A stretch of DNA of 48,428 nt. Source: Puia dinghuensis (GTDB taxonomy: Bacteria > Bacteroidota > Bacteroidia > Chitinophagales > Chitinophagaceae). Positions within the stretch are counted from its first letter, which is position 1; the number at the start of each line of letters is the position of its first letter. Below are positions 1-24,209 of the stretch, piece by piece. A program made the translations under genes and the position numbers. Under the pieces are notes generated by a model. That model did no database searches, had not been told where the DNA came from, and was given only the letters and a program-made list of their open reading frames with translations. The stretch is taken from the NCBI GenBank assembly GCA_026225275.1, contig JAMFSL010000035.1, positions 1-48,428 of the forward strand, given 5' to 3'.

Positions 1-214
1 AGCCTTTGCCGTCAGGGGTCTGCGAGCCCGTGAGCACGCGGTACGTTCGGGCTCTTTTGACATGCCATCCGTCAAAATTCTGTTCATAATGGACTACCAT
101 AAACAGTAGCAGCGTTACCGCCACCCCCAGGGTGAGCCCCAGGATGTTGATGATCGAATAGCCCTTGTTACGCTGCAGGCTGCGCACGGCAATGATCCAG
201 TAGTTCTTTATCAT
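1..214 (-). CDS. MacB/FtsX-like ABC permease, N-terminus (cut by window edge)
   Basis: Reading the minus strand from the ATG at 214 gives about 71 residues starting MIKNYWIIAVRSLQRNK, then a hydrophobic segment (about residues 20-42, IINILGLTLGVAVTLLLFMV) and the start of a periplasmic domain (HYEQNFDGWH). This is the standard N-terminus of the large MacB/FtsX-like permeases that recur at 12.6-24.2 kb here. The gene runs off the left edge, so its length and integrity are unknown. Its upstream region carries the same GTATCGAAAG plus sigma-54-like arrangement as two of the other permeases, which supports this start. Family members couple ATP hydrolysis by a separate ATPase to substrate export or mechanical work across the envelope; the substrate is unknown. 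Confidence 0.85.
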   Translation of the reverse strand, partial: MIKNYWIIAVRSLQRNKGYSIINILGLTLGVAVTLLLFMVVHYEQNFDGWHVKRARTYRVLTGSQTPDGKG

Positions 215-240: not shown

Positions 241-325
241 GGATCTAAAAGAATGCCAGTGTATAATCCACTCATATCCATCCATTTGCAGGCGTGTGCC
301 TGCTGCCCCTGTTCACTTTCGATAC
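241..325 (-). promoter_or_regulatory. Upstream element and weak sigma-54-like promoter of the permease at 1-214
   Basis: On the minus strand GTATCGAAAG lies at 325-316. After 58 bp comes TGGCA with its GG at 257-256, then 10 nt and GA at 245-244, where a sigma-54 -12 box would have GC. The start codon is at 214. The -12 match is imperfect, but the spacing agrees with the two better copies near 15.0 and 19.3 kb. This is an inference from shared spacing. Confidence 0.4.
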
Positions 326-417
326 AGCTAATGACCGCCAGCGTTCAGTGAGGTCTTCCATCGGCGTCTCGGGGCAACAGTTGAATTTTCCCTGCTTTTG
401 GTCCGTGTTCCCTATTT

Positions 418-12606: not shown

Positions 12607-15002
12607 CTAGTCAGCCTTCAAGCTTCTAATGGGGCTCACCATTGCCGCCTTCACCGCCTGTACACTCACCGTCAGCAACGTGATCCCGATCGCCCCCGCG
12701 GCCGTCGCCGCAAAGATCCACCACGCCATCCCGCTGCGGTACTCATACCCCAACAACCACTGGTGCATCCCATACCACGACAGCGGCATCGCAATCGCCA
12801 ACGCCACTCCCACCAACACCACAAAATCCTTCGACAACATCCCCCAAAGACCCAATACTCCCGCACCCAGCACCTTCCGCACCCCGATCTCCTTCGTCCG
12901 CTGCTCGGCCATATAAGCCGCCATGCCGAATAAGCCCAGACAGCTGATAAAGATCGCCAGCACCGCAAAGATCGCTGCCAGCCGCCCCGCCCGCTGTTCA
13001 TCTCCAAACTTCCGGGCATACGTCGTATCGACAAACTGATAGTCGAAAGGTTGCGAAGGATCGTATTTCGCAAACACAAATTTAATCGTCGCCAGCAACG
13101 GCCCCGCAGGCCGACTCCGGTTCAGCCGCAACATCTCAAACGCATCGTGATCACGCACCTGACAGAACAGCGAAGGTCGCACCTCTGCGTAGGGTGACTC
13201 CATCAACATATTTTTAATGACCCCGATGATCCGGAACGGCTGCCCCTCCCATTTCAAGATCTTCCCCACCGGGTCCTTCATCCCCATATACCTGACTGCC
13301 GCCTCATTGATCACAAAGGCCGCAGTATCCGTAGCAAAATCCTTCCTGAAATCCCGCCCCGCCACGAATTGCCAGCCCACCGTATGACCATAGCCGGGAG
13401 AAACTCCCGTATTCGCAAATTCCACCGCCAGATTCGGGTCCTTCCCCTCCCAGTCGAATCCCCCATTCGTGCCCCAGACATCCGTCGCCGGTCCGCCTGC
13501 CTCCGCCATATCCTCGATCACCCCGGCATGCAGTAACTCCGTCCGTACGGCATCAAAATGCTCGTGGATCTCCTTATTGTACATATAAATACTAACCAGC
13601 CCGTTCTGATCATAGCCGATCGGCCGGTCCATCGCATAGCGCACCTGCCTGAAGACCACTACCGTGCCGATAATGAGGCTTACGCTGACGGCGAACTGCA
13701 ATACCACCAATGCCTGCCGAGGCAACGCAGCCATCCGCCCCGCCCGATAAGAGCCTTTCAAGACCTTCACCGGCCGGAACGAAGACAGATACAAGGCTGG
13801 ATAACTACCGGCAATCAAACCCGTCAACGCACAGAACGCCAGCCCCATGAGCCAAAAGGCAGGACTTCCCCACGGTACGCTCATCTCCTTCCCTGCCACC
13901 CCGTTAAACGCAGGCAACCAGGCACTGACCACCAGCAGCGCCAGCGCATATGCCATCGTCGCCATCAACAGTGACTCCACAAAGAACTGCCGGATCAACT
14001 GTCCGCGTAACGACCCGATTGCCTTCCTAATCCCCACTTCCTTCGCCCTCCGCTCGCTCCGCGCCGTCGAAAGATTCATAAAATTGATACACGCCAGCAG
14101 CAGCACAAACACCCCGATGACCCCGAAGAGCCAGACATACTGGATCCGGCCACCCGTATTGACGCCGTTTTTGAATTCGCTGTACAGATACCAGCGGCTC
14201 ATCGGATGCAAAAATAATTCGGGATGATACTGCCGCGACGACGGCTGACAATTGTTGAATTTCGCCAGCCGGATATGCGCCGAGACGCCGGCCATTGTCG
14301 TGTTCGGGGCAATCTCCGTATACACCGTCCAGGAATTGTTGCCCCAGGGATCGGGCATCGACGCAATACCCGGCTCGCTGGCCAGATAGGCCGGCCAGGA
14401 ACCGATCCAGCCCACGTCGCCAAAGCTGCTGTTGGCCGGAAGATCCTCATATACCCCCGTCACTTTCAGATTCGTTTTACTATCTACCTGTACCACCGCG
14501 CCCATCGGGTCCCGATCGCCAAAGAGGGTGACGGCCGAGCTCCGCGAAAGCAGGACCGTATAACCTTCCCTTATCCCTTCCCGTGAGCCCCGCAGCATCG
14601 TCAGCGACAACAGGTAGGGTGCGTCCCCTTCCATATACTCTCCCCTCAGTGTCGTCACCTTTGCATCCGCCGTCGCACCCACCTTCACCAGGTGATTAGC
14701 CCGCCAATTGGCCATCACGACATACCGGAAATTGCTGGCATAGTGCGTGCGCAATTCCGCCGCCAGCGGTGCGGGCTCCCCCACGCCACGCCCCTGTCGC
14801 CGCCCATGACGCTGGCCTGCATCACCTGACCGATGCGGTCATAGCGGGGAATACTTTTGTTATAATTCAGCTCGTCGGCGACCCAGATGCCGATCGACAA
14901 GGCAACGGCCATCCCGATCGTCAGCCCGGCGATATTGATGGCGGCATGCGCTTTGTGCCTGCGCAGGTTGCGCAGCGCAGTCTTTATATAGTTTTGGAAC
15001 AT
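12607..15002 (-). pseudogene. MacB/FtsX-like ABC permease with a frameshift
   Basis: Two frames make one permease. The N-terminal part starts at ATG 15002 (MFQNYIKTALRNLRRHK) and reads through a first membrane helix to ASVMGGDRGVAWG. The rest continues in another frame as GEPAPLAAELRTHY and runs normally to LKAD at 12607. The switch falls at a run of five C (five G in the message) at 14778-14782; one additional G restores the frame exactly. The downstream part has both FtsX domains (RRAKEVGIRKAIGS and QRTKEIGVRKVLGAG motifs) and two periplasmic core domains. It may be a sequencing error, a recent mutation or a phase-variable tract. The gene has the GTATCGAAAG and sigma-54-like elements upstream. 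No ATPase is nearby. Confidence 0.85.
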
Positions 15003-15015
15003 AGTGTCAAATGGT

Positions 15016-15100
15016 GCCAAGCGCATGCCGGAAATATAGAGATTTGGAAATCAATTTTTTAGATGACGGGCGACTGTGATGTTTTGACCGCTTTCGATAC
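15016..15100 (-). promoter_or_regulatory. GTATCGAAAG element and sigma-54-like promoter of the 12607-15002 permease
   Basis: On the minus strand GTATCGAAAG (15100-15091) is followed after 61 bp by CGGCATGCGCTTGGCA: GG at 15029-15028, 10 nt, GC at 15017-15016, matching the sigma-54 -24/-12 layout. The element is flanked by CCGCT and AGCGG arms, an inverted repeat like an activator site. The predicted transcript start would be only a few bases before the ATG at 15002, so the message may be almost leaderless. Confidence 0.55.
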
Positions 15101-15147
15101 AGCGGCATGACCGCGACCGGACAGAACCGATCCTATTCGCTACAAGA

Positions 15148-15191: not shown

Positions 15192-17684
15192 CTAGTCTGT
15201 CCTTAGGCTGCCTATAGGGTTGGCCGTCGCCGCCCGTATCGCCTGCCAGCTGATCGTCAGCAGCGCAATCGCCAGCACCAGTATCCCCGCCGCCATAAAC
15301 ACCCCCACCCCTATATCGATCCGGTACACATAATTCCGCAGCCACACATGCATCCCCCACCAGGCCACCGGCGCCGCAATGACAATAGCGATCAACACCA
15401 GCTTCACAAACTCACCCGACATCAGCCCCGCCAGCTGCATCACCGTCGCCCCCAACACCTTCCGGATCCCGATCTCCTTCCGCCGCTGCTCCGCCATGAA
15501 GGCAGACAATGCCAGCAGCCCCAGACAGGCGATGATCACCGCCAGTGTCGCGAGACTCGTAAAAATATGGCCCGTCCGCTGTACATCGGCATACATCCGG
15601 GCAAAGCTTTCATCCATAAAGGTGTAGCGCATTTCTTGGTGTGGTAGAAAGCTCTTCCATACCCCATCGACCTGTTTGATCAATCCCGCAGGATCACGCG
15701 TATCGATCTTGACCGCAACGACAGTGGCCCAGTTACCCCGATGTAACACCAGCGGCCCGACCGCAGTCGTCAACGATTCGAAATTGAAGTCCCGCACTAC
15801 CCCTACGACATGCATCGCAACAGGCCCCCCGTTGCTGATCTGCAGCCCGATCGGATCGGCCGTCCCCAACTGCTGCGCCATCGTCTCGTTGATGACGATC
15901 CCCGTGGAATCAGAGGCCATCTCGTCCGAAAAATTCCTGCCCTTCACTATTGTCATCCCCATCGCGGGGATATAATCCTGGTCCACCCACCAGCTTTGAG
16001 CAGCGATCCGCGGGTCCACCTTTTGCCGGCCCCATTTCCACATGCTATTCATATTCCGTTTGCCGCCGGTGACCGGCAAGAAGTCACTGACGGATACCGT
16101 GGTCACCCCCGGTAATTTCAGCAGTTCCGTTTTAAAGTCCGGCAGCTTCTTGTCCAACACCCCCGTCCCCTGCACCAGTAGCACCTGCGACTTATCATAA
16201 CCCATTTTCCGGTCCATGATAAATTTCATCTGCCGGTATACCACAAAGGTGGCGATGATTAAGATCGCCGAGGTCGTGAACTGGAAGACAACCAGTACGC
16301 TGCGTAAGCTCACTTTACTCCGGACGGTCCCCCCAGACCTTCGTCCGAGCTGCTTCGTCACGCTCGTCCTCGTTCGCAACCATCGGAGGCCTTGGTTGCC
16401 TTTTAGCACCTCCACCGGCCGGAAAGCCGACAAATACACCGCCGGATAGATCCCCGCCAGCAGCCCGATGACTATCGCAGCGCCCGCCACCACCGGCAGC
16501 AGCCACCATTCAGTCCAGGGCATGCGCAATGAAGTCGCCGTCAGCTGGTTGAACAAAGGCATCATCAACCACGCCAACACCAGCCCCAGTAAGAAAGCGA
16601 CGCCGCTCATCACCAGCGACTCCAGCAAAAACTGTCTGATCAGGCCGCCGCGACGCGATCCAACGACCTTCCGCAGACCTACCTCCTTCGCCCGCCCTGC
16701 ACTCCGCGCCGTCGAGAGGTTGACGAAATTGATACAGGCCAGCAGCAGGATAAAACAGCCTACCGCCGCAAACAACCATACAAAGCGTATATCGCCATGG
16801 GTCAGGCTATCTGCAATATTATAGGAGAACAGGTGAATGTCTCGGACAGGTTGCAGGATAAAACTGCAGGAATTGATAATGTGTTGCGGATCCTTCGTCC
16901 CCATCGACACCAATCCGGGCAGGATATACTGACCGAACATCACCTTCATCTTCTTCTGGAGGGACTCTATATCCGCTCCCCGTCGCAGCAGAACATAACT
17001 ATCATAGTTATCCGCCAGCCACTGCTGCTGCTCACCTGGCCACAGCTCATGGCCAGCCAGGGATAAAAGAAAGTCGTATTGGAGATGCGAATTCGTCGGC
17101 ATATCCTGCATCACTCCCCCAACCGTCCAGGGATGGTCCTTGTCATCGTTGAGGTATAGCAGCTTACCGACCGGGTCTTGTCCCGGGAAAAACTTATCTG
17201 CCTTACGCCGGCTGATGAGGATACTGTGCGGCGCTGTCAGCGCATGGGCCCGGTCGCCATATACCATGGGGAATTGAAACATATCGACCATCGACTGGTC
17301 CGCGTAGCTGAAGCCCTCTTCGAAGATGTTCTCCTCCGCTCCCGCTGCCCGGACTTCATTACTGCCTGCACCCTCGAACAATGGGTACGGCATCGTTCGG
17401 CCCGCCAACTCTACCTCCGGGAACTCCTTCTTAAAGGCGACTGCAAAGGGAGCAGGCATCGCCGGCCCTCTGCTTTCTTTCCCGTCGGGGTTATAGACCT
17501 GGATGACTCGAAACAATCGGTCCGTCTCTGCCCAGCCGCGGTCATAGCTGGTTTCGTTCCGGATATATAATGCAATGAGCAGGCAGGTGGCGATGCCCAG
17601 CGCGAATCCGCCGATCTTGATGGCGGAGTAGAATTTGTGCTTGCGCATCTGCCGCAGGGCAATCATCAGATAATTCCGGAACAT
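15192..17684 (-). CDS. MacB/FtsX-like ABC permease with an in-frame repeat insertion
   Basis: From ATG 17684 (MFRNYLMIALRQMRKHK) the product is 830 residues; the frame extends 26 codons further upstream but the conserved family N-terminus sets this start. The order is helix 1 (about 20-40), periplasmic core domain, FtsX domain with GRAKEVGLRKVVGSRRG, central helix, second core domain, and a final FtsX domain with QRRKEIGIRKVLGATV. Between VLKG and LVVFQF it carries about 34 residues where its paralogues in this window have 13-14; the extra Arg/Thr-rich part (LRTRTSVTKQLGRRSGG) matches an intergenic repeat seen at 5839-5883. The closest sister in the window is the 19359-21791 permease. The ATPase partner is not nearby and the substrate is unknown. 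Confidence 0.9.
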   Translation of the reverse strand: MFRNYLMIALRQMRKHKFYSAIKIGGFALGIATCLLIALYIRNETSYDRGWAETDRLFRVIQVYNPDGKESRGPAMPAPFAVAFKKEFPEVELAGRTMPYPLFEGAGSNEVRAAGAEENIFEEGFSYADQSMVDMFQFPMVYGDRAHALTAPHSILISRRKADKFFPGQDPVGKLLYLNDDKDHPWTVGGVMQDMPTNSHLQYDFLLSLAGHELWPGEQQQWLADNYDSYVLLRRGADIESLQKKMKVMFGQYILPGLVSMGTKDPQHIINSCSFILQPVRDIHLFSYNIADSLTHGDIRFVWLFAAVGCFILLLACINFVNLSTARSAGRAKEVGLRKVVGSRRGGLIRQFLLESLVMSGVAFLLGLVLAWLMMPLFNQLTATSLRMPWTEWWLLPVVAGAAIVIGLLAGIYPAVYLSAFRPVEVLKGNQGLRWLRTRTSVTKQLGRRSGGTVRSKVSLRSVLVVFQFTTSAILIIATFVVYRQMKFIMDRKMGYDKSQVLLVQGTGVLDKKLPDFKTELLKLPGVTTVSVSDFLPVTGGKRNMNSMWKWGRQKVDPRIAAQSWWVDQDYIPAMGMTIVKGRNFSDEMASDSTGIVINETMAQQLGTADPIGLQISNGGPVAMHVVGVVRDFNFESLTTAVGPLVLHRGNWATVVAVKIDTRDPAGLIKQVDGVWKSFLPHQEMRYTFMDESFARMYADVQRTGHIFTSLATLAVIIACLGLLALSAFMAEQRRKEIGIRKVLGATVMQLAGLMSGEFVKLVLIAIVIAAPVAWWGMHVWLRNYVYRIDIGVGVFMAAGILVLAIALLTISWQAIRAATANPIGSLRTD
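16336..16381 (-). repeat. Repeat segment inside the permease coding sequence
   Basis: This 46 bp piece aligns with the intergenic segment at 5839-5883 at about 76% by eye. It is part of an insertion of roughly 60 bp, a multiple of three, relative to the other permeases in the window, and it falls in the loop between the first FtsX domain and the central membrane helix. Confidence 0.45.
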
Positions 17685-19166: not shown

Positions 19167-19249
19167 CCCCCGCTCCGGGGCCGGCGATTCCGGGCCGGGA
19201 ATAGTTTTAGCCGGACGAGTCACGGGCTTTGCGAACACGTACACCTGCC
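19167..19249. other. GC-rich stretch after murF
   Basis: Just after the murF stop are short complementary runs (CCCCG-ctc-CGGGG near 19168-19180, then ggccggcgattccgggccggg) that could fold as a weak terminator. It does not carry the TAAC-GGGGC block of the structured repeats. No gene is seen before the permease regulatory elements starting at 19250. Confidence 0.35.
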
Positions 19250-19333
19250 GTATCGAAAGCGGACACCGCCGCCCATCGCGATTGCGTAAATAATTAATTG
19301 CCAATGCCATATAAAACCGGCACCCGATTGGCA
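19250..19333 (+). promoter_or_regulatory. GTATCGAAAG element and sigma-54-like promoter of the 19359 permease
   Basis: GTATCGAAAG at 19250-19259 is followed by GCGGACACC and, 59 bp on, by CGGCACCCGATTGGCA: GG at 19319-19320, exactly 10 nt, GC at 19331-19332. Sigma-54 promoters have TGGCAC-N5-TTGCA, so GGCAC and the GG/GC spacing match well. The ATG is at 19359, leaving a leader of about 15 nt. The upstream element would be an enhancer-binding activator site. Confidence 0.6.
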
Positions 19334-19358: not shown

Positions 19359-21791
19359 ATGCACAACAACAATCTCACCATCGCCCTCCGGCAATTGCGT
19401 AAGCAAAAAATGTATGCCGTCATCAAGATCGGCGGCTTAGCCCTCGGCATCACCGCCTGCCTGCTGATCTCCCTGTACATCAGGGATGAATTGCACTACG
19501 ACAGGGCTTACCCCGATGTCGCCCGCATTTTTCGGCTGACCGATAGATTTGACGATAATGGCAAAACAGGGAGCAATTCGGACTGGCAGGCTCCCGTAGC
19601 TAAAGCCTTAATGGCGGATTTTCCCGAAGTAGAGAAGGCCGGCCGCCTAATGCCCCATGAAACATTCGATGGGGGAAGCAATGAGGTAAGGTCTGTCGAT
19701 AAAACACAAAACAACTTTGAAACCAGGTTCGCTTACGCCGACCAGGAACTACTGGACATCCTCAAAATACCCCTGATCTACGGCGACCGGGCACATGCGC
19801 TGACCGAGCCCAACACGATGCTGATTTCCAAAAGGAAGGCCGACAAATATTTCCCTCGCCAGAATCCCGTCGGTCAAACGTTAGTGCTGAACAACGACAG
19901 GAACCAGACTTATACCATCACCGGCGTCATGCAGGATTTTCCCTCTACCTCGCATATTCAATACGATTTTTGGCTTACCCTCTCCGGTCACGAACTCTTT
20001 CCCGGCGAGGCGAACTCCTGGAACGCTACTAACTATTCAACCTACCTGCTGTTAAAGCCGGGCACGGATGTCGCACAGCTGCAGGTCAAGTTGAAACTCC
20101 TGCTGACAAAATACATTATACCCACCTTGCGGCAGAATGGAGATATCATAGCGGATAAAGTGGAACAAACGACCACCTTCTACCTGCAGCCCATCAGTAA
20201 GATCCATCTCGATACTACGATTGATGATGAAGTGAGCCATGGAGATATACGCTTCATCTGGTTGTTCGCCGCCGTAGCGGGTTTCATCCTCCTCATCGCC
20301 TGCATAAATTTCATCAATCTTTCCACGGCGAAATCGGCGAACCGGGCCAGGGAAGTGGGACTGCGGAAAGTGATCGGATCGCTGCGCAGCGGGCTGATCA
20401 AACAATTCCTGACGGAGTCGCTGCTATTCAGCTTTCTTTCCTTTGGTTTAGCCCTGGTGCTGGCGGTATTGTTATTGCCTTACTTCAACCGGCTGGCGGA
20501 TAAATCGCTGACCATTCCGTTCACCGCCTGGTGGCTCGCACCCCTTCTCCTCGGCGCGGCCATCGTCACCGGCGTCCTGGCGGGTCTTTATCCTTCCCTG
20601 TATCTTTCCTCCTTCAAACCGATAGACGTGCTGAAGGGACAGGTCAGCAGAGGCGCGAAAAGTTCCCTGCTGCGGAATGGCCTCGTCGTCTTCCAATTCA
20701 CGACATCTGTCATCCTCATCATCAGCACGGTCGTCGTGTACAACCAGATGCACTTCATCCTCCATCAAAAGATGGGATTCAACAAAGACCAGGTCGTTTT
20801 GCTGCAAGGGACCAACACGCTGGCAGGTCAGGTAAAAGATTTCAAACATGAGCTGGCCAACCTTCCCCAGGTCAGCAGCGTCTCCATCGGTGATTACCTG
20901 CCCATAGCCAACACCAAACGCGACTGGGAACAATTCTGGCATGAAGGAAAAACGAAGGTAGAAGCAGGTTTCTACGCACAGACATGGATGGTAGACGAAG
21001 ACTATGTCCGCACAATGGGGATGCGGCTTGTCGCCGGAAGGAATTTTTCCCCGGCTATCGCCTCCGACTCACAGGCCGTCATTATCAACCAGGCGATGGC
21101 GCAACAGCTTCATCTGACGGACGCACCGGGTAAAAGGATAACCGTCGACTGGGGGGCTACCTACACGATCATCGGTGTCGTGCAGGACTTCAATTTCGAA
21201 ACTATGCGTACCGGCATCAGGCCGTTGTGTCTGCATTTGGGTAACAGCCCGTCGATCATCTCCGTCAAGGTCAATACCGCGGATATGAAGCAAAGCCTGG
21301 CCGCTATCACCGCCGTGTGGCATCGCTTCGCCCCCAATCAGCCGATACGATATACCTTCCTCGATGAGAGCTTCAGGAATATGTATGCCGACGTGCAAAG
21401 GATGGGAGACATTTTCAGCAGCTTTGCCAGCCTGGCGATCGTGATTGCCTGTCTCGGGCTGTTCGCCTTATCTGCATTCATGGCCGAGCAGCGCAATAAA
21501 GAGATCGGTATCCGGAAAGTACTGGGCGCCAGTGTCAGCGGGATTACCTTTTTGATGTCAAGAGAGTTTATCTTTTTGGTTGCCCTGGCTATCCTTATCG
21601 CCTCGCCGGTGGCGTGGTGGGCCATGAATACCTGGCTGCAGGATTTCGCCTCTGCTTACCGGACCACGATCAGCTGGTGGGTAATCGCACTGGCAGGTGC
21701 CGGTGCGATCGCTATAGCACTGCTGACAGTCAGCATCCAAGCAGTGAAGGCCGCGCTGGCGAATCCGGTGCAGAGCCTTCGCTCTGAATGA
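19359..21791 (+). CDS. MacB/FtsX-like ABC permease
   Basis: The 810-residue product opens MHNNNLTIALRQLRKQKMYA and shows the complete family layout: helix 1 (about 20-42), periplasmic core domain (about 50-280), first FtsX domain with NRAREVGLRKVIGSLRSG (about 320-340), a central helix after VLKGQVSRGAKSSLL, second core domain with VDEDYVRTMGMRLVAGRNF, and the terminal FtsX domain with QRNKEIGIRKVLGASV. It is closest by eye to the 15192-17684 permease on the other side of murF (both have CLLIALYIRxE/LYIRDELHYDRA and TMGM motifs), suggesting a local duplication. It is probably the first gene of a two-permease transcript with 21837-24209 (45 bp gap), controlled by the sigma-54-like promoter in front. 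Confidence 0.93.
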   Translation: MHNNNLTIALRQLRKQKMYAVIKIGGLALGITACLLISLYIRDELHYDRAYPDVARIFRLTDRFDDNGKTGSNSDWQAPVAKALMADFPEVEKAGRLMPHETFDGGSNEVRSVDKTQNNFETRFAYADQELLDILKIPLIYGDRAHALTEPNTMLISKRKADKYFPRQNPVGQTLVLNNDRNQTYTITGVMQDFPSTSHIQYDFWLTLSGHELFPGEANSWNATNYSTYLLLKPGTDVAQLQVKLKLLLTKYIIPTLRQNGDIIADKVEQTTTFYLQPISKIHLDTTIDDEVSHGDIRFIWLFAAVAGFILLIACINFINLSTAKSANRAREVGLRKVIGSLRSGLIKQFLTESLLFSFLSFGLALVLAVLLLPYFNRLADKSLTIPFTAWWLAPLLLGAAIVTGVLAGLYPSLYLSSFKPIDVLKGQVSRGAKSSLLRNGLVVFQFTTSVILIISTVVVYNQMHFILHQKMGFNKDQVVLLQGTNTLAGQVKDFKHELANLPQVSSVSIGDYLPIANTKRDWEQFWHEGKTKVEAGFYAQTWMVDEDYVRTMGMRLVAGRNFSPAIASDSQAVIINQAMAQQLHLTDAPGKRITVDWGATYTIIGVVQDFNFETMRTGIRPLCLHLGNSPSIISVKVNTADMKQSLAAITAVWHRFAPNQPIRYTFLDESFRNMYADVQRMGDIFSSFASLAIVIACLGLFALSAFMAEQRNKEIGIRKVLGASVSGITFLMSREFIFLVALAILIASPVAWWAMNTWLQDFASAYRTTISWWVIALAGAGAIAIALLTVSIQAVKAALANPVQSLRSE

Positions 21792-21836: not shown

Positions 21837-24209
21837 ATGCTCAAAAACTATCTCACCGTCGCCTGGCGGGCCTTCCGCAACAACAAGGCCTTTTCCCTGA
21901 TCAATATCTTTGGTCTCGCCCTTGGCATGGCCTGCAGCCTGCTGATCTTCCTGTGGATCCGGGACGAACGGAGCATGGACAACTTTCACGCCAACGGATC
22001 CCGGCTCTACATGCTCTACGAACAGGAACACATCGACGGCAAAATGATGGCCGGCTACTGGACGCCAGGTCTCCTCGGACGCGAACTGAAAAGACGGATG
22101 CCCGAAGTGGAATACGCTACAACCATCAGCGGGCATGACGGCGTCACCTTCCAGGCAGGCGATAAGATCATCAAACAGGACGGGATTGCCGCCGACTCCG
22201 ACTATTTCAACATGTTCAGCTACCCCTTGTTACAGGGTACGGCGACCACGGCGCTGGATAACCCTTCGGCTATCGCCATCTCCGACAAAATGGCCCGGAG
22301 CTTTTTCGGCAGCGCCCGGTCGGCGATCGGGAAGTCTATTCTCTGCCAAAACCACCGGCAGTTTACGGTCTCCGCCGTTTTTGCCGACCCGCCCGCCAAC
22401 AGCTCGTGGAAATTCGACTTCGTCATCAACTGGATTGCAGAACTCGAAGACAACAACTGGATGACCAACTGGGAAAATAATAGCCCCAGCACCGCCATCA
22501 TGTTGCGCGCCAACGCCGATCCGGTGCTGACCGCGGCAAAATTGAAAAAAATACTCTTCGACTACAACAAGAATTTCGGCAAAACATTCTGGACCGATCT
22601 CGGCATGCAGCCATTAGGCGATGTCTACCTGCATGGCAACTTCACCGACGGCCAGTTGACCGGCGGCCGCATCGAATACGTTCGGTTGTTCAGCATCGTC
22701 GCTATATTCATCCTGTTCATCGCTTGTATCAACTTCATGAATCTGACGACTGCCCGGTCGGCCCGCAGAGCGAAAGAGATCGGCATCCGCAAAGTCGCCG
22801 GCGCCATCCGGGGTTCACTCGTCGGTCAATTCCTCAGTGAGGCAGTACTCCTGACCGCCCTCTCCGCCATTCTCGCGGTCATGCTGGCCAATGCCGTGCT
22901 GCCCGTCTTTAATACCCTGACCCAAAAACAGATCGTCATTCCCTATACCAACGCTCATTTCTGGTTGGAACTCGCCGCACTGACACTGGTGACGGGCTTG
23001 CTGGCAGGTAGTTATCCCGCCGTTTTTCTTTCCGCTTTGCAGCCCATCCGGGTGTTAAAAGGAGCTTTGACATTCAGCAACAGCTCTGTCCTCTTCAGAA
23101 AAGGGCTGGTGGTCTTCCAGTTCGTCCTCTCCATCGTCCTTATCATCGGCACCATCGTCGTGGCCAGACAGATCAACTATGCCCAGCACGCCAACCTGGG
23201 CTTCAACAAGGAGAACCTCGCCTATATCCCGTTGGAAGGCGATCTCGGCAATAAGTATGCGGTATTCAAACAACAGGCTGCCCGGATGCCGGGGGTAGGC
23301 GCGGTGTCCTGTATGGCGGATGCGCCAACGAATATCGGGCGCACGATCACTGCCACGGTCTCCTGGACCGGCAAAGACCCCAATGCCAAACCCTTGTTCG
23401 CCATCACAGAAGCCGGTTATGATTTCGTCAAAACCATGAACCTGCAACTCGCGGCAGGCCGTGACTTTTCCCGCAACTTCCCGTCGGACACGACAGATTA
23501 TCTCGTCAATGAAGAGGCCCTGAAGACCCTGAAATATAAAGACCCCATTGGCCAGCCACTCGAGCTATGGGGCCAAAAAGGACATATCATTGGTGTGCTC
23601 AGAGATTTTCATCTGAAATCTTTGCATGAACGGATCACTCCCCTGATCGTTAGGTTCAATGAGGCCCACAATGACGGTGTCATCCTGGTACGGATACAGG
23701 GGCAGCATACGAAAGAAGTGCTGACGGATCTCGAAGGCATCTGCTCCAGCCTGAATCCGAAGTTTCCGTTCACGTGTTTGTTTGCTGACGAAGAATATAA
23801 AAAACTATACAACAGCGAAGTGATCGTCAGCCATCTGTCCGATTATCTTGCAGGACTGGCCATCTTTATTTCCTGCATGGGACTGCTGGGACTGGCCATG
23901 TTCACCGCCGAACAACGCACCCGCGAGATCGGGATCCGGAAAGTATTGGGTGCAGGCATTTTCTCTCTGCTCACTCTCCTGTCCGGCGAATTCCTGGTAC
24001 TCGTCGTCATTGCGCTGCTGATCGCCTCGCCGCTGGCATGGTGGGCCATGCATGTTTGGCTGCAAGACTATGCGTATAAGATCACTATCGAGTGGTGGTT
24101 CTTTGGTCTGGCCGGCGCCATGGCTATCGTTATAGCGCTGCTGACGGTCAGTTTACAGGCAGTAAAGGCCGCGCTGGCGAATCCGGTGAGGAGTTTAAGG
24201 GCAGAGTAG
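21837..24209 (+). CDS. MacB/FtsX-like ABC permease
   Basis: The 790-residue protein begins MLKNYLTVAWRAFRNNKAFS and keeps both periplasmic core domains and both FtsX domains (RRAKEIGIRKVAGAIRGS about 305-322; QRTREIGIRKVLGAGI near 700). Its first core domain differs from the preceding permease (ERSMDNFHANGSRLYMLYEQ), and by eye it belongs to a different subgroup, so the pair is not a simple recent duplication. It lies 45 bp behind the 19359 permease, with no promoter-like box in the gap, so cotranscription is likely. No ATP-binding subunit is encoded next to it. Structured repeat copy 3 starts two bases after its stop codon. Confidence 0.93.
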   Translation: MLKNYLTVAWRAFRNNKAFSLINIFGLALGMACSLLIFLWIRDERSMDNFHANGSRLYMLYEQEHIDGKMMAGYWTPGLLGRELKRRMPEVEYATTISGHDGVTFQAGDKIIKQDGIAADSDYFNMFSYPLLQGTATTALDNPSAIAISDKMARSFFGSARSAIGKSILCQNHRQFTVSAVFADPPANSSWKFDFVINWIAELEDNNWMTNWENNSPSTAIMLRANADPVLTAAKLKKILFDYNKNFGKTFWTDLGMQPLGDVYLHGNFTDGQLTGGRIEYVRLFSIVAIFILFIACINFMNLTTARSARRAKEIGIRKVAGAIRGSLVGQFLSEAVLLTALSAILAVMLANAVLPVFNTLTQKQIVIPYTNAHFWLELAALTLVTGLLAGSYPAVFLSALQPIRVLKGALTFSNSSVLFRKGLVVFQFVLSIVLIIGTIVVARQINYAQHANLGFNKENLAYIPLEGDLGNKYAVFKQQAARMPGVGAVSCMADAPTNIGRTITATVSWTGKDPNAKPLFAITEAGYDFVKTMNLQLAAGRDFSRNFPSDTTDYLVNEEALKTLKYKDPIGQPLELWGQKGHIIGVLRDFHLKSLHERITPLIVRFNEAHNDGVILVRIQGQHTKEVLTDLEGICSSLNPKFPFTCLFADEEYKKLYNSEVIVSHLSDYLAGLAIFISCMGLLGLAMFTAEQRTREIGIRKVLGAGIFSLLTLLSGEFLVLVVIALLIASPLAWWAMHVWLQDYAYKITIEWWFFGLAGAMAIVIALLTVSLQAVKAALANPVRSLRAE

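Follow-up and report, generated by a model that had tools for sequence, protein, structure and literature searches.

A candidate sigma-54 regulon of scattered orphan MacB/FtsX permeases and its likely activator in Puia dinghuensis

The stretch of DNA analysed here, called the window, is 48,428 nucleotides long and corresponds to contig C6 of the 6.59-Mb genome of Puia dinghuensis (G000), which is assembled in 365 contigs and is 99.9% complete. Three MacB/FtsX permease genes of the window are preceded by copies of the 10-mer GTATCGAAAG at 19250–19259 (+), 15091–15100 (−), and 316–325 (−). All three copies read toward the start codon of a permease (ATG at 19359 (+), 15002 (−), and 214 (−)), from which they are separated by 99, 88, and 101 bp, and each is followed by a GG-N10-G element. 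A sequence-only reading of the window had placed the motifs and elements at these positions and had interpreted them as an enhancer-type site and an RpoN promoter controlling a permease regulon. The 10-mer is the core of a 17-bp site, TGTATCGAAANCGGACA, and the near-constant spacing claimed in that reading is retained when it is re-measured from the end of the 17-bp site (52, 54, and 51 bp). A third element, the IHF-like YAANNNNTTGATW, is positioned about 31 bp upstream of the −24 box. The features of the window are listed in Table 1.

Table 1 Permease genes of the window and the putative regulatory elements upstream of them (UAS, upstream activating site; EM, expectation-maximisation).
Feature	Position	Strand	Description
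Putative UAS CGTATCGAAAGCGGACA	19249..19265	+	One mismatch from TGTATCGAAANCGGACA; 27.6 bits, EM model
IHF-like element TAAATAATTAATT	19287..19299	+	8/9 versus YAANNNNTTGATW; 31 bp upstream of −24 box
Sigma-54 −24/−12 element CGGCACCCGATTGGC	19318..19332	+	11.1 bits; 52 bp past UAS
Orphan permease, 810 aa	19359..21791	+	Pfam MacB_PCD and FtsX, two matched stretches each
Second permease	21837..24209	+	45 bp downstream of first; no UAS of its own
Putative UAS TGTATCGAAAGCGGTCA	15085..15101	−	22.2 bits
IHF-like element TAAAAAATTGATT	15049..15061	−	9/9; 31 bp upstream of −24 box
Sigma-54 element CGGCATGCGCTTGGC	15016..15030	−	12.7 bits; 54 bp past UAS
Split permease gene	12607..15002	−	Two frames
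Putative UAS TGTATCGAAAGTGAACA	310..326	−	21.1 bits
Sigma-54 element TGGCATTCTTTTAGA	244..258	−	18.4 bits; 51 bp past UAS
Third permease, N-terminal part (MIKNYWIIAVRSLQRNKG...)	1..214	−	Cut by contig end
Permease without UAS	15192..17666	−	Upstream ECF-like GCAACATT...CGTC; contrast, outside regulon

The second permease on the forward strand is probably in one operon with the first. The gene starting at ATG 15002 is split: its N-terminal frame ends near 14717, and the remainder is open from approximately 14838 to 12609, and the break near 14717–14838 reflects either an error in sequencing or a lesion of recent origin. At the promoter of the third permease, the IHF-like element is a weak match, scoring 7/9 at −29.

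The exact 10-mer is not a signature of permease promoters. It occurs 28 times in the genome, compared with 13 matches of the reversed pattern, and 23 of the 28 copies are not before permeases; 21 of these 23 are inside open frames of at least 200 codons. The five copies that precede permeases have TGTATCGAAAGYGRACA in common, or nearly. With one mismatch allowed, the window contains four matches to the 10-mer versus 2.6 expected. By contrast, the 17-bp site with at most one mismatch is found at 20 places in the genome, whereas its reversed pattern is absent. At up to two mismatches there are 39 places, which hand reading assigned to permease upstreams (28), promoters of the candidate regulator's own cluster (three), upstreams of two paralogous small secreted proteins (two), and positions without a matching promoter (six). 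The expectation of the sequence-only reading that a genome scan would find the motif concentrated before FtsX/MacB genes thus holds for the 17-bp site but not for the 10-mer alone.

A search with up to three mismatches gives 101 matches versus 57 for the control. Nearly all the scored matches outside permease upstreams lacked an 8-bit promoter at a fitting distance and were rejected as additional members. Those kept are C15:6831 and C176:1762, which belong to one small secreted family and have the promoter at 74/75 bp, and C163:32117, which precedes a small membrane protein with the promoter at 54 bp. The match at C164:5818 was not kept; it has a strong element, but 68 bp away and out of phase. 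For the good sites at C208:9414, C257:167688, and C298:5073, no promoter was found on scoring. Two similar small secreted proteins of 150 and 171 aa are encoded at L216 454–903 (−) and L161 1832–2344 (+), and their genes have the site together with a sigma-54 element 74/75 bp away. A search of Pfam and NCBIfam gave no family name for the small secreted family.

The upstream regions of permeases were modelled on a genome-wide set. A search with PF12704 (MacB_PCD) gave 147 domain matches, from which upstream DNA was fetched and 84 start codons were placed. The 84 upstreams are the fetched PF12704 loci with a placeable start; C100:65 is outside the set. Loci L029, L030, L040, L108, L118, L120, L121, L123–L125, L127, L129, and L130 were left out because they have no clear start, encode permeases of other types, or are truncated. 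Locus L126 (C277) is also outside the counts, yet has a site and a promoter on later reading, and L075 and L131 cover genes that are in the counts under other loci. Expectation-maximisation on the 84 upstreams recovered the site as TGTATCGAAAcCGgACA, with 20.7 bits over 25 columns (8.9–9.8 bits in five shuffles), and the promoter as TGGCAtttTtTTgGc, with 12.9 bits (7.5–9.9 bits in five shuffles). The site reaches 9 bits upstream of 47 of the 84 permeases (mean 0.8 and maximum 3 in 100 shuffles) and 14 bits upstream of 41 (maximum 1 in 100 shuffles); it is absent from the other 37. A TGGCAY...TTGGC (−24/−12) promoter of at least 8 bits is located within 30–109 bp of the site in 41 of the 47 site-bearing upstreams, and the remaining six have none by the model. 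The model missed the promoter of L006, TGGCACTAAACCAGC, 75 bp past the site.

The distance between site and promoter is restricted to a narrow range. Among the 41 promoters, it is 50 bp in one, 51 in five, 52 in eight, 53 in 19, 54 in four, 55 in one, 74 in two, and 84 bp in one. Therefore, 36 of the 41 promoters are at 51–54 bp, compared with a mean of 0.08 and a maximum of 2 in 300 shuffles of the downstream DNA. Because the model was trained on the very upstreams that it scores, the bit scores carry some circularity, which is partly answered by a promoter-blind test and by relatives. In the promoter-blind test, 61 sites were selected by the 17-mer alone, with at most one mismatch, in the window's genome and five relatives. 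Within 25–109 bp downstream of these sites, 32 of 63 GG[CT]A[CT] boxes are at 51–54 bp, versus one of 20 in the mirror stretch upstream. Departing spacings tend toward helical turns (42, 64, and 74 bp). Of the boxes outside 50–56 bp, 18 of 29 downstream are in helical phase (33% expected, P = 0.0012), compared with five of 17 upstream; a box counts as in phase if its distance differs from 52.5 bp by a multiple of 10.5 bp, give or take 1.6 bp, a rule that was fixed after the spacings of 42, 53, and 74 had been noticed.

The conservation in relatives that the sequence-only reading had proposed as a check is observed, since order and spacing recur in the five other genomes, where hand reading places 32 of 41 sites before permeases. 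Automatic labelling of permeases missed L343 and wrongly took L371, and a hand count again gave 32 of 41. Two of the other sites precede the second ATPase gene of the regulator's cluster (L362 and L372), two stand before genes for secreted proteins with many TSGGN repeats (L371 and L380), and the remaining five have another gene downstream, or none.

Seven genes have a −24 box starting 26–28 nt before the ATG (ATG 15002, L006, L023, L031, L032, L092, and L104), and the next distance among promoters of at least 8 bits is 39 nt. At 26–28 nt, the predicted start is at or within about 2 nt of the ATG, so these transcripts would be leaderless; for the gene at 15002, transcription is predicted from the position of the element to start approximately 2 nt before the ATG. 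Some of the permeases lacking the site carry a different pattern. The ECF-like GCAACATT...CGTC, with variants allowed, begins 34–70 bp before the start of seven of the 37 site-less permeases and none of the 47 site-bearing ones (shuffled mean 0.2, maximum 2; the pattern was picked after looking). Its carriers are the 15192–17666 gene of the window and L046, L058, L077, L084, L096, and L110. The ECF-like promoter apparently defines a second regulon for the same permease family.

The IHF-like element was recognised in an alignment of the 41 promoters on their TGG, which displays TAAataaTTGATTt.cAA upstream of the −24 box. Column information reaches 1.26 bits between −31 and −19, compared with a null maximum of 0.43. 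The element resembles the IHF consensus WATCAANNNNTTR, a comparison that was chosen only after TTGATT had been noticed in the promoters. A score of at least 8/9 is reached in 24 of the 41 promoters (shuffled maximum 6 in 300), and 21 of these 24 elements are at −30 or −31 relative to the TGG. Its distance from the promoter is unchanged in L083 and L051, where the site lies two or three turns farther out. The element is weaker in other genomes: among the relatives' sites, 12 of 41 have a score of at least 8 at −30 or −31, as do 17 of 44 named promoters. The genome contains four HU/IHF-type genes. It is also possible that the third element is a UP-like contact for RNA polymerase.

The genome encodes nine strong sigma-54 enhancer-binding proteins, one of which, encoded on contig C176, is the likely activator. 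Its gene adjoins that of a histidine kinase and is divergent from genes for an adaptor, an ATPase (ATPase1), three permeases, a second ATPase, and a TolC-type protein. Each of the two promoters of the C176 cluster has two sites 22 bp apart, with the −24 box 52/74 and 51/73 bp away. The regulator contains receiver (PF00072, 2.5e-20), AAA+ (PF00158, 9.5e-65), and Fis-type helix-turn-helix (PF02954, 6.3e-15) domains. Its loop reads GAFTDA where GAFTGA is usual, a change that appears among the variants listed in PMC4641369 as ones that would keep activity. Two PF04552 matches, in frames of 504 and 478 aa at G000:C249:20316 and C26:35095, identify RpoN, so this one genome has two RpoN genes. The kinase has two hydrophobic stretches within residues 8–51 in a hydropathy scan, a membrane anatomy which suggests that it may sense within the membrane.

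The sequence-only reading had also anticipated an enhancer-binding-protein gene with a matching distribution, and the C176 type provides one. Among 147 genomes of the family, 70 have a regulator orthologue of at least 62% identity and 53 have the site. The site is present in 51 of the 70 genomes with the regulator and in two of the 77 without it (table 51/19/2/75, P = 6.5e-21); the P value is overstated, because the genomes are not independent. The two exceptions (G006 and G106) have a regulator homologue of 51–52% identity. When the reversed pattern is tabulated as a control, no association is seen (10/60/10/67, P = 1). The co-occurrence partly reflects conservation in cis of a single locus, since site-bearing genomes other than six with five to 20 sites have one to three, in some genomes beside the regulator. 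Upstream of the regulator gene itself, the site is found in 26 of 30 family genomes, counting that of the window, and 15 have a second copy at a distance of 22 bp; alignment A1 took in 24 of the 30 regulator loci. Among the 79 of 80 named loci with sufficient upstream DNA, a site of at least 16 bits precedes the regulator in 47 and is missing in 32, compared with none in 78 coding controls. The site-bearing named loci include Mucilaginibacter, Pedobacter, Pontibacter, Flavihumibacter, Aequorivita, and Algibacter. No site of 12 bits was found in any of the named loci of Sphingobacterium and Parabacteroides, nor in several of Rufibacter and Pontibacter. The kinase gene accompanies the regulator in 79 of the 80 named loci, and a divergent ATPase1 gene in 59, short contigs included. 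These distributions bear on the alternative that the promoters are of the sigma-54 type while the 17-mer is bound by another of the nine enhancer-binding proteins, or by several related ones. The number of such proteins speaks for this alternative, as do the 19 of 70 regulator-bearing genomes without a site at one mismatch. However, the site lies upstream of the C176-type gene itself, and its distribution tracks that gene in a co-occurrence test run on the C176 type alone among the nine; another activator is therefore given only a small share of the probability.

The closest regulator among the named records, from the Chitinophagaceae MAG palsa_949 (L337), is 98% identical over residues 182–451. 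In the closest relatives, a LytS/LytR-type pair is encoded beside the regulator and kinase genes (L163 1783–3712, L262, and L337), with weaker matches in L278 and a few other named loci. In Sphingobacterium (L323, L328, L331–L333, L336, and L340) the cluster is present without the site, and the TolC gene is between the adaptor and regulator genes; the circuit seems to have been rewired in this genus.

It is very improbable that the shared upstream pattern is a relic of permease gene duplication devoid of present regulation. The permeases form one paralogous family, and descent explains part of the similarity. However, pairwise comparison of the 19 promoters with 53-bp spacing gives a mean identity of 0.72 for the site but the background level of 0.27 for the spacer that follows; the IHF-like element is at 0.56, the gap from there to the promoter at 0.40, and the promoter itself at 0.65. 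The first 85 residues of the site-bearing permeases are on average 35% and at most 62% identical (40 sequences). The same site and spacing are found before unrelated genes, namely those for the adaptor, the ATPase–TolC unit, and small secreted proteins, and the preference of departing spacings for whole helical turns also argues against a relic. Least likely of all is a reading without RpoN, in which the 17-mer serves as a different kind of operator or activator site and some other sigma factor uses the TGGCA element: the primary sigma factor of Bacteroidota has its own unusual promoter, but the GG is present in 41 of 41 elements and the G at +13 in 40 of 41 (in part because the same model selected them), the sixth position of TGGCAY is C or T in 41 of 41, RpoN is encoded, the helical spacing is strict with an IHF-like element between site and promoter, and we know of no other kind of promoter that matches these features in combination.

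The interpretation of the sequence-only reading, an enhancer-type site with an RpoN promoter before a group of permeases, is supported by the sequence tests that were run. Beyond it, the analysis adds the size of the regulon, the full 17-bp site, the IHF-like element, the helical phasing, and the likely activator. The promoters in the window very probably belong to a sigma-54 and enhancer-binding-protein regulon that seems to have been expanded in this lineage onto orphan duplicated permeases. Through a common control region of three parts, one sensor–activator pair appears to switch on a transporter cluster together with about fifty scattered permeases that lack a neighbouring ATPase. In the proposed mechanism, the phosphorylated C176 regulator would bind the 17-bp site approximately 80–96 bp before the predicted transcript start, and the spacing of 51–54 bp would fix the helix face on which it is bound. 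A protein of the HU/IHF type would bend the DNA at the YAANNNNTTGATW element, and the ATPase of the regulator would open RpoN–RNA polymerase held at the −24/−12 element. The predicted targets are the regulator's own adaptor–ATPase–permease cluster and the ATPase–TolC unit, both with paired sites, approximately 47 of the 84 examined orphan duplicated MacB/FtsX permeases across the genome, and a few small proteins of the secreted or membrane type.

Sigma-54 promoters of the NtrC, NifA, and Pu type combine an upstream activator site with an IHF bend. The promoters described here share with them the −24/−12 GG-N10-GC element, an activator site some 80–100 bp upstream, an IHF-like element between the two, and an NtrC-family activator with a kinase, but differ in that about forty promoters of a single gene family have the very regular spacing of 51–54 bp, with departures favouring whole turns. 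The bare link between sigma-54 and these permeases is already in print: a 2025 survey reports that, in Bacteroidia as well as other classes, sigma-54 promoters are enriched before COG0577 or FtsX-like permeases, which it describes as first evidence (PMC12316311). The terms 'UAS' and 'upstream activating' are absent from the main text of that survey, which, as far as the text available goes, gives no activator, activator site, IHF-like element, spacing, or list of orphan paralogues. In a literature search by titles and abstracts that covered few subscription papers, no paper on the C176 regulator, its site, or the architecture was found.

The permeases and their cluster resemble three known systems in part. 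The acidobacterial orphan permeases ADOP (TIGR03434), which are linked to PadR regulators, are also duplicated FtsX/MacB_PCD permeases of approximately 800 aa with many paralogues lacking a neighbouring ATPase. However, the two permeases that were scanned score 344 bits (the 19359..21791 gene) and 270 bits, under the TIGR03434 cut-off of 622, and control here is of the sigma-54 type. The C176 cluster has an adaptor, an ATPase, a permease, and a TolC-type protein, as do MacAB–TolC and the darobactin exporter DarBCD. It differs from them in having several permeases and in encoding ATPase and permease as separate genes; it is below the curated cut-offs for DarD (299/375), DarC (149/450), and DarB (137/700), and the MacB equivalog cut-offs are not reached. 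Bce-type modules, which function in peptide sensing and detoxification, encode FtsX-type permeases with a histidine kinase. The membrane anatomy of the C176 kinase invites this comparison: like the kinases of such modules, it has a pair of membrane helices with almost no periplasmic loop and is encoded with FtsX-type permeases. Unlike Bce modules, the regulator is NtrC-type rather than OmpR-type, and there are dozens of permeases. By analogy with Bce modules, the orphan permeases may feed back on the kinase.

The number of sites per genome indicates how the regulon may have grown. With at most one mismatch, there are 20 sites in G000, 13 in G065, 11 in G035, 10 in G085, six in G060, and five in G018, whereas the other 141 genomes have 0–3. 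An old circuit on the cluster itself has probably spread later to scattered permeases, many of which would have been recruited as an expansion in some lineages.

The orphan duplicated permeases may share one or two ATPases. Seven ATPases at least 40% identical to ATPase1, itself counted, are encoded in the genome: the C176 cluster, C257, and C181 have two each, and C48 has one. Those on C181 adjoin permeases of other types, which were excluded from the 84. Among the 84 permeases, only those of C176 have such an ATPase within 5 kb; a few permeases, including some on C357 and C117, have less similar ATPases (approximately 30% identity) within about 5 kb. In the named loci, ATPase1 is 60–97% identical (median 85, 59 loci), compared with 25–64% for the permeases (median 36, 157 matches), 42–71% for the adaptor (median 54), and 42–97% for the kinase (median 58). 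High conservation of ATPase1 is expected if many partners must fit it, yet small ATPases are often conserved. Tentatively, the sequence data may be read as a modular exporter, commanded by one sensor–activator pair, in which dozens of orphan permeases with divergent periplasmic domains would use the one or two highly conserved ATPases of the cluster and take turns with them, the adaptor, and TolC.

To our knowledge, orphan FtsX/MacB permeases have no assigned role or control, and the genome contains more than 80 copies of them. With a candidate regulator, a site that can be read from sequence, and a constant promoter layout, these permeases become a regulon open to testing, in which the loss of one regulator should alter some fifty genes at once. 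The 17-bp site provides a way to list members of the regulon in related genomes, and some forty natural variants of one sigma-54 promoter are useful for studies of spacing and DNA bending. If the exporter is modular, one envelope signal would deploy a whole repertoire of transport specificities.
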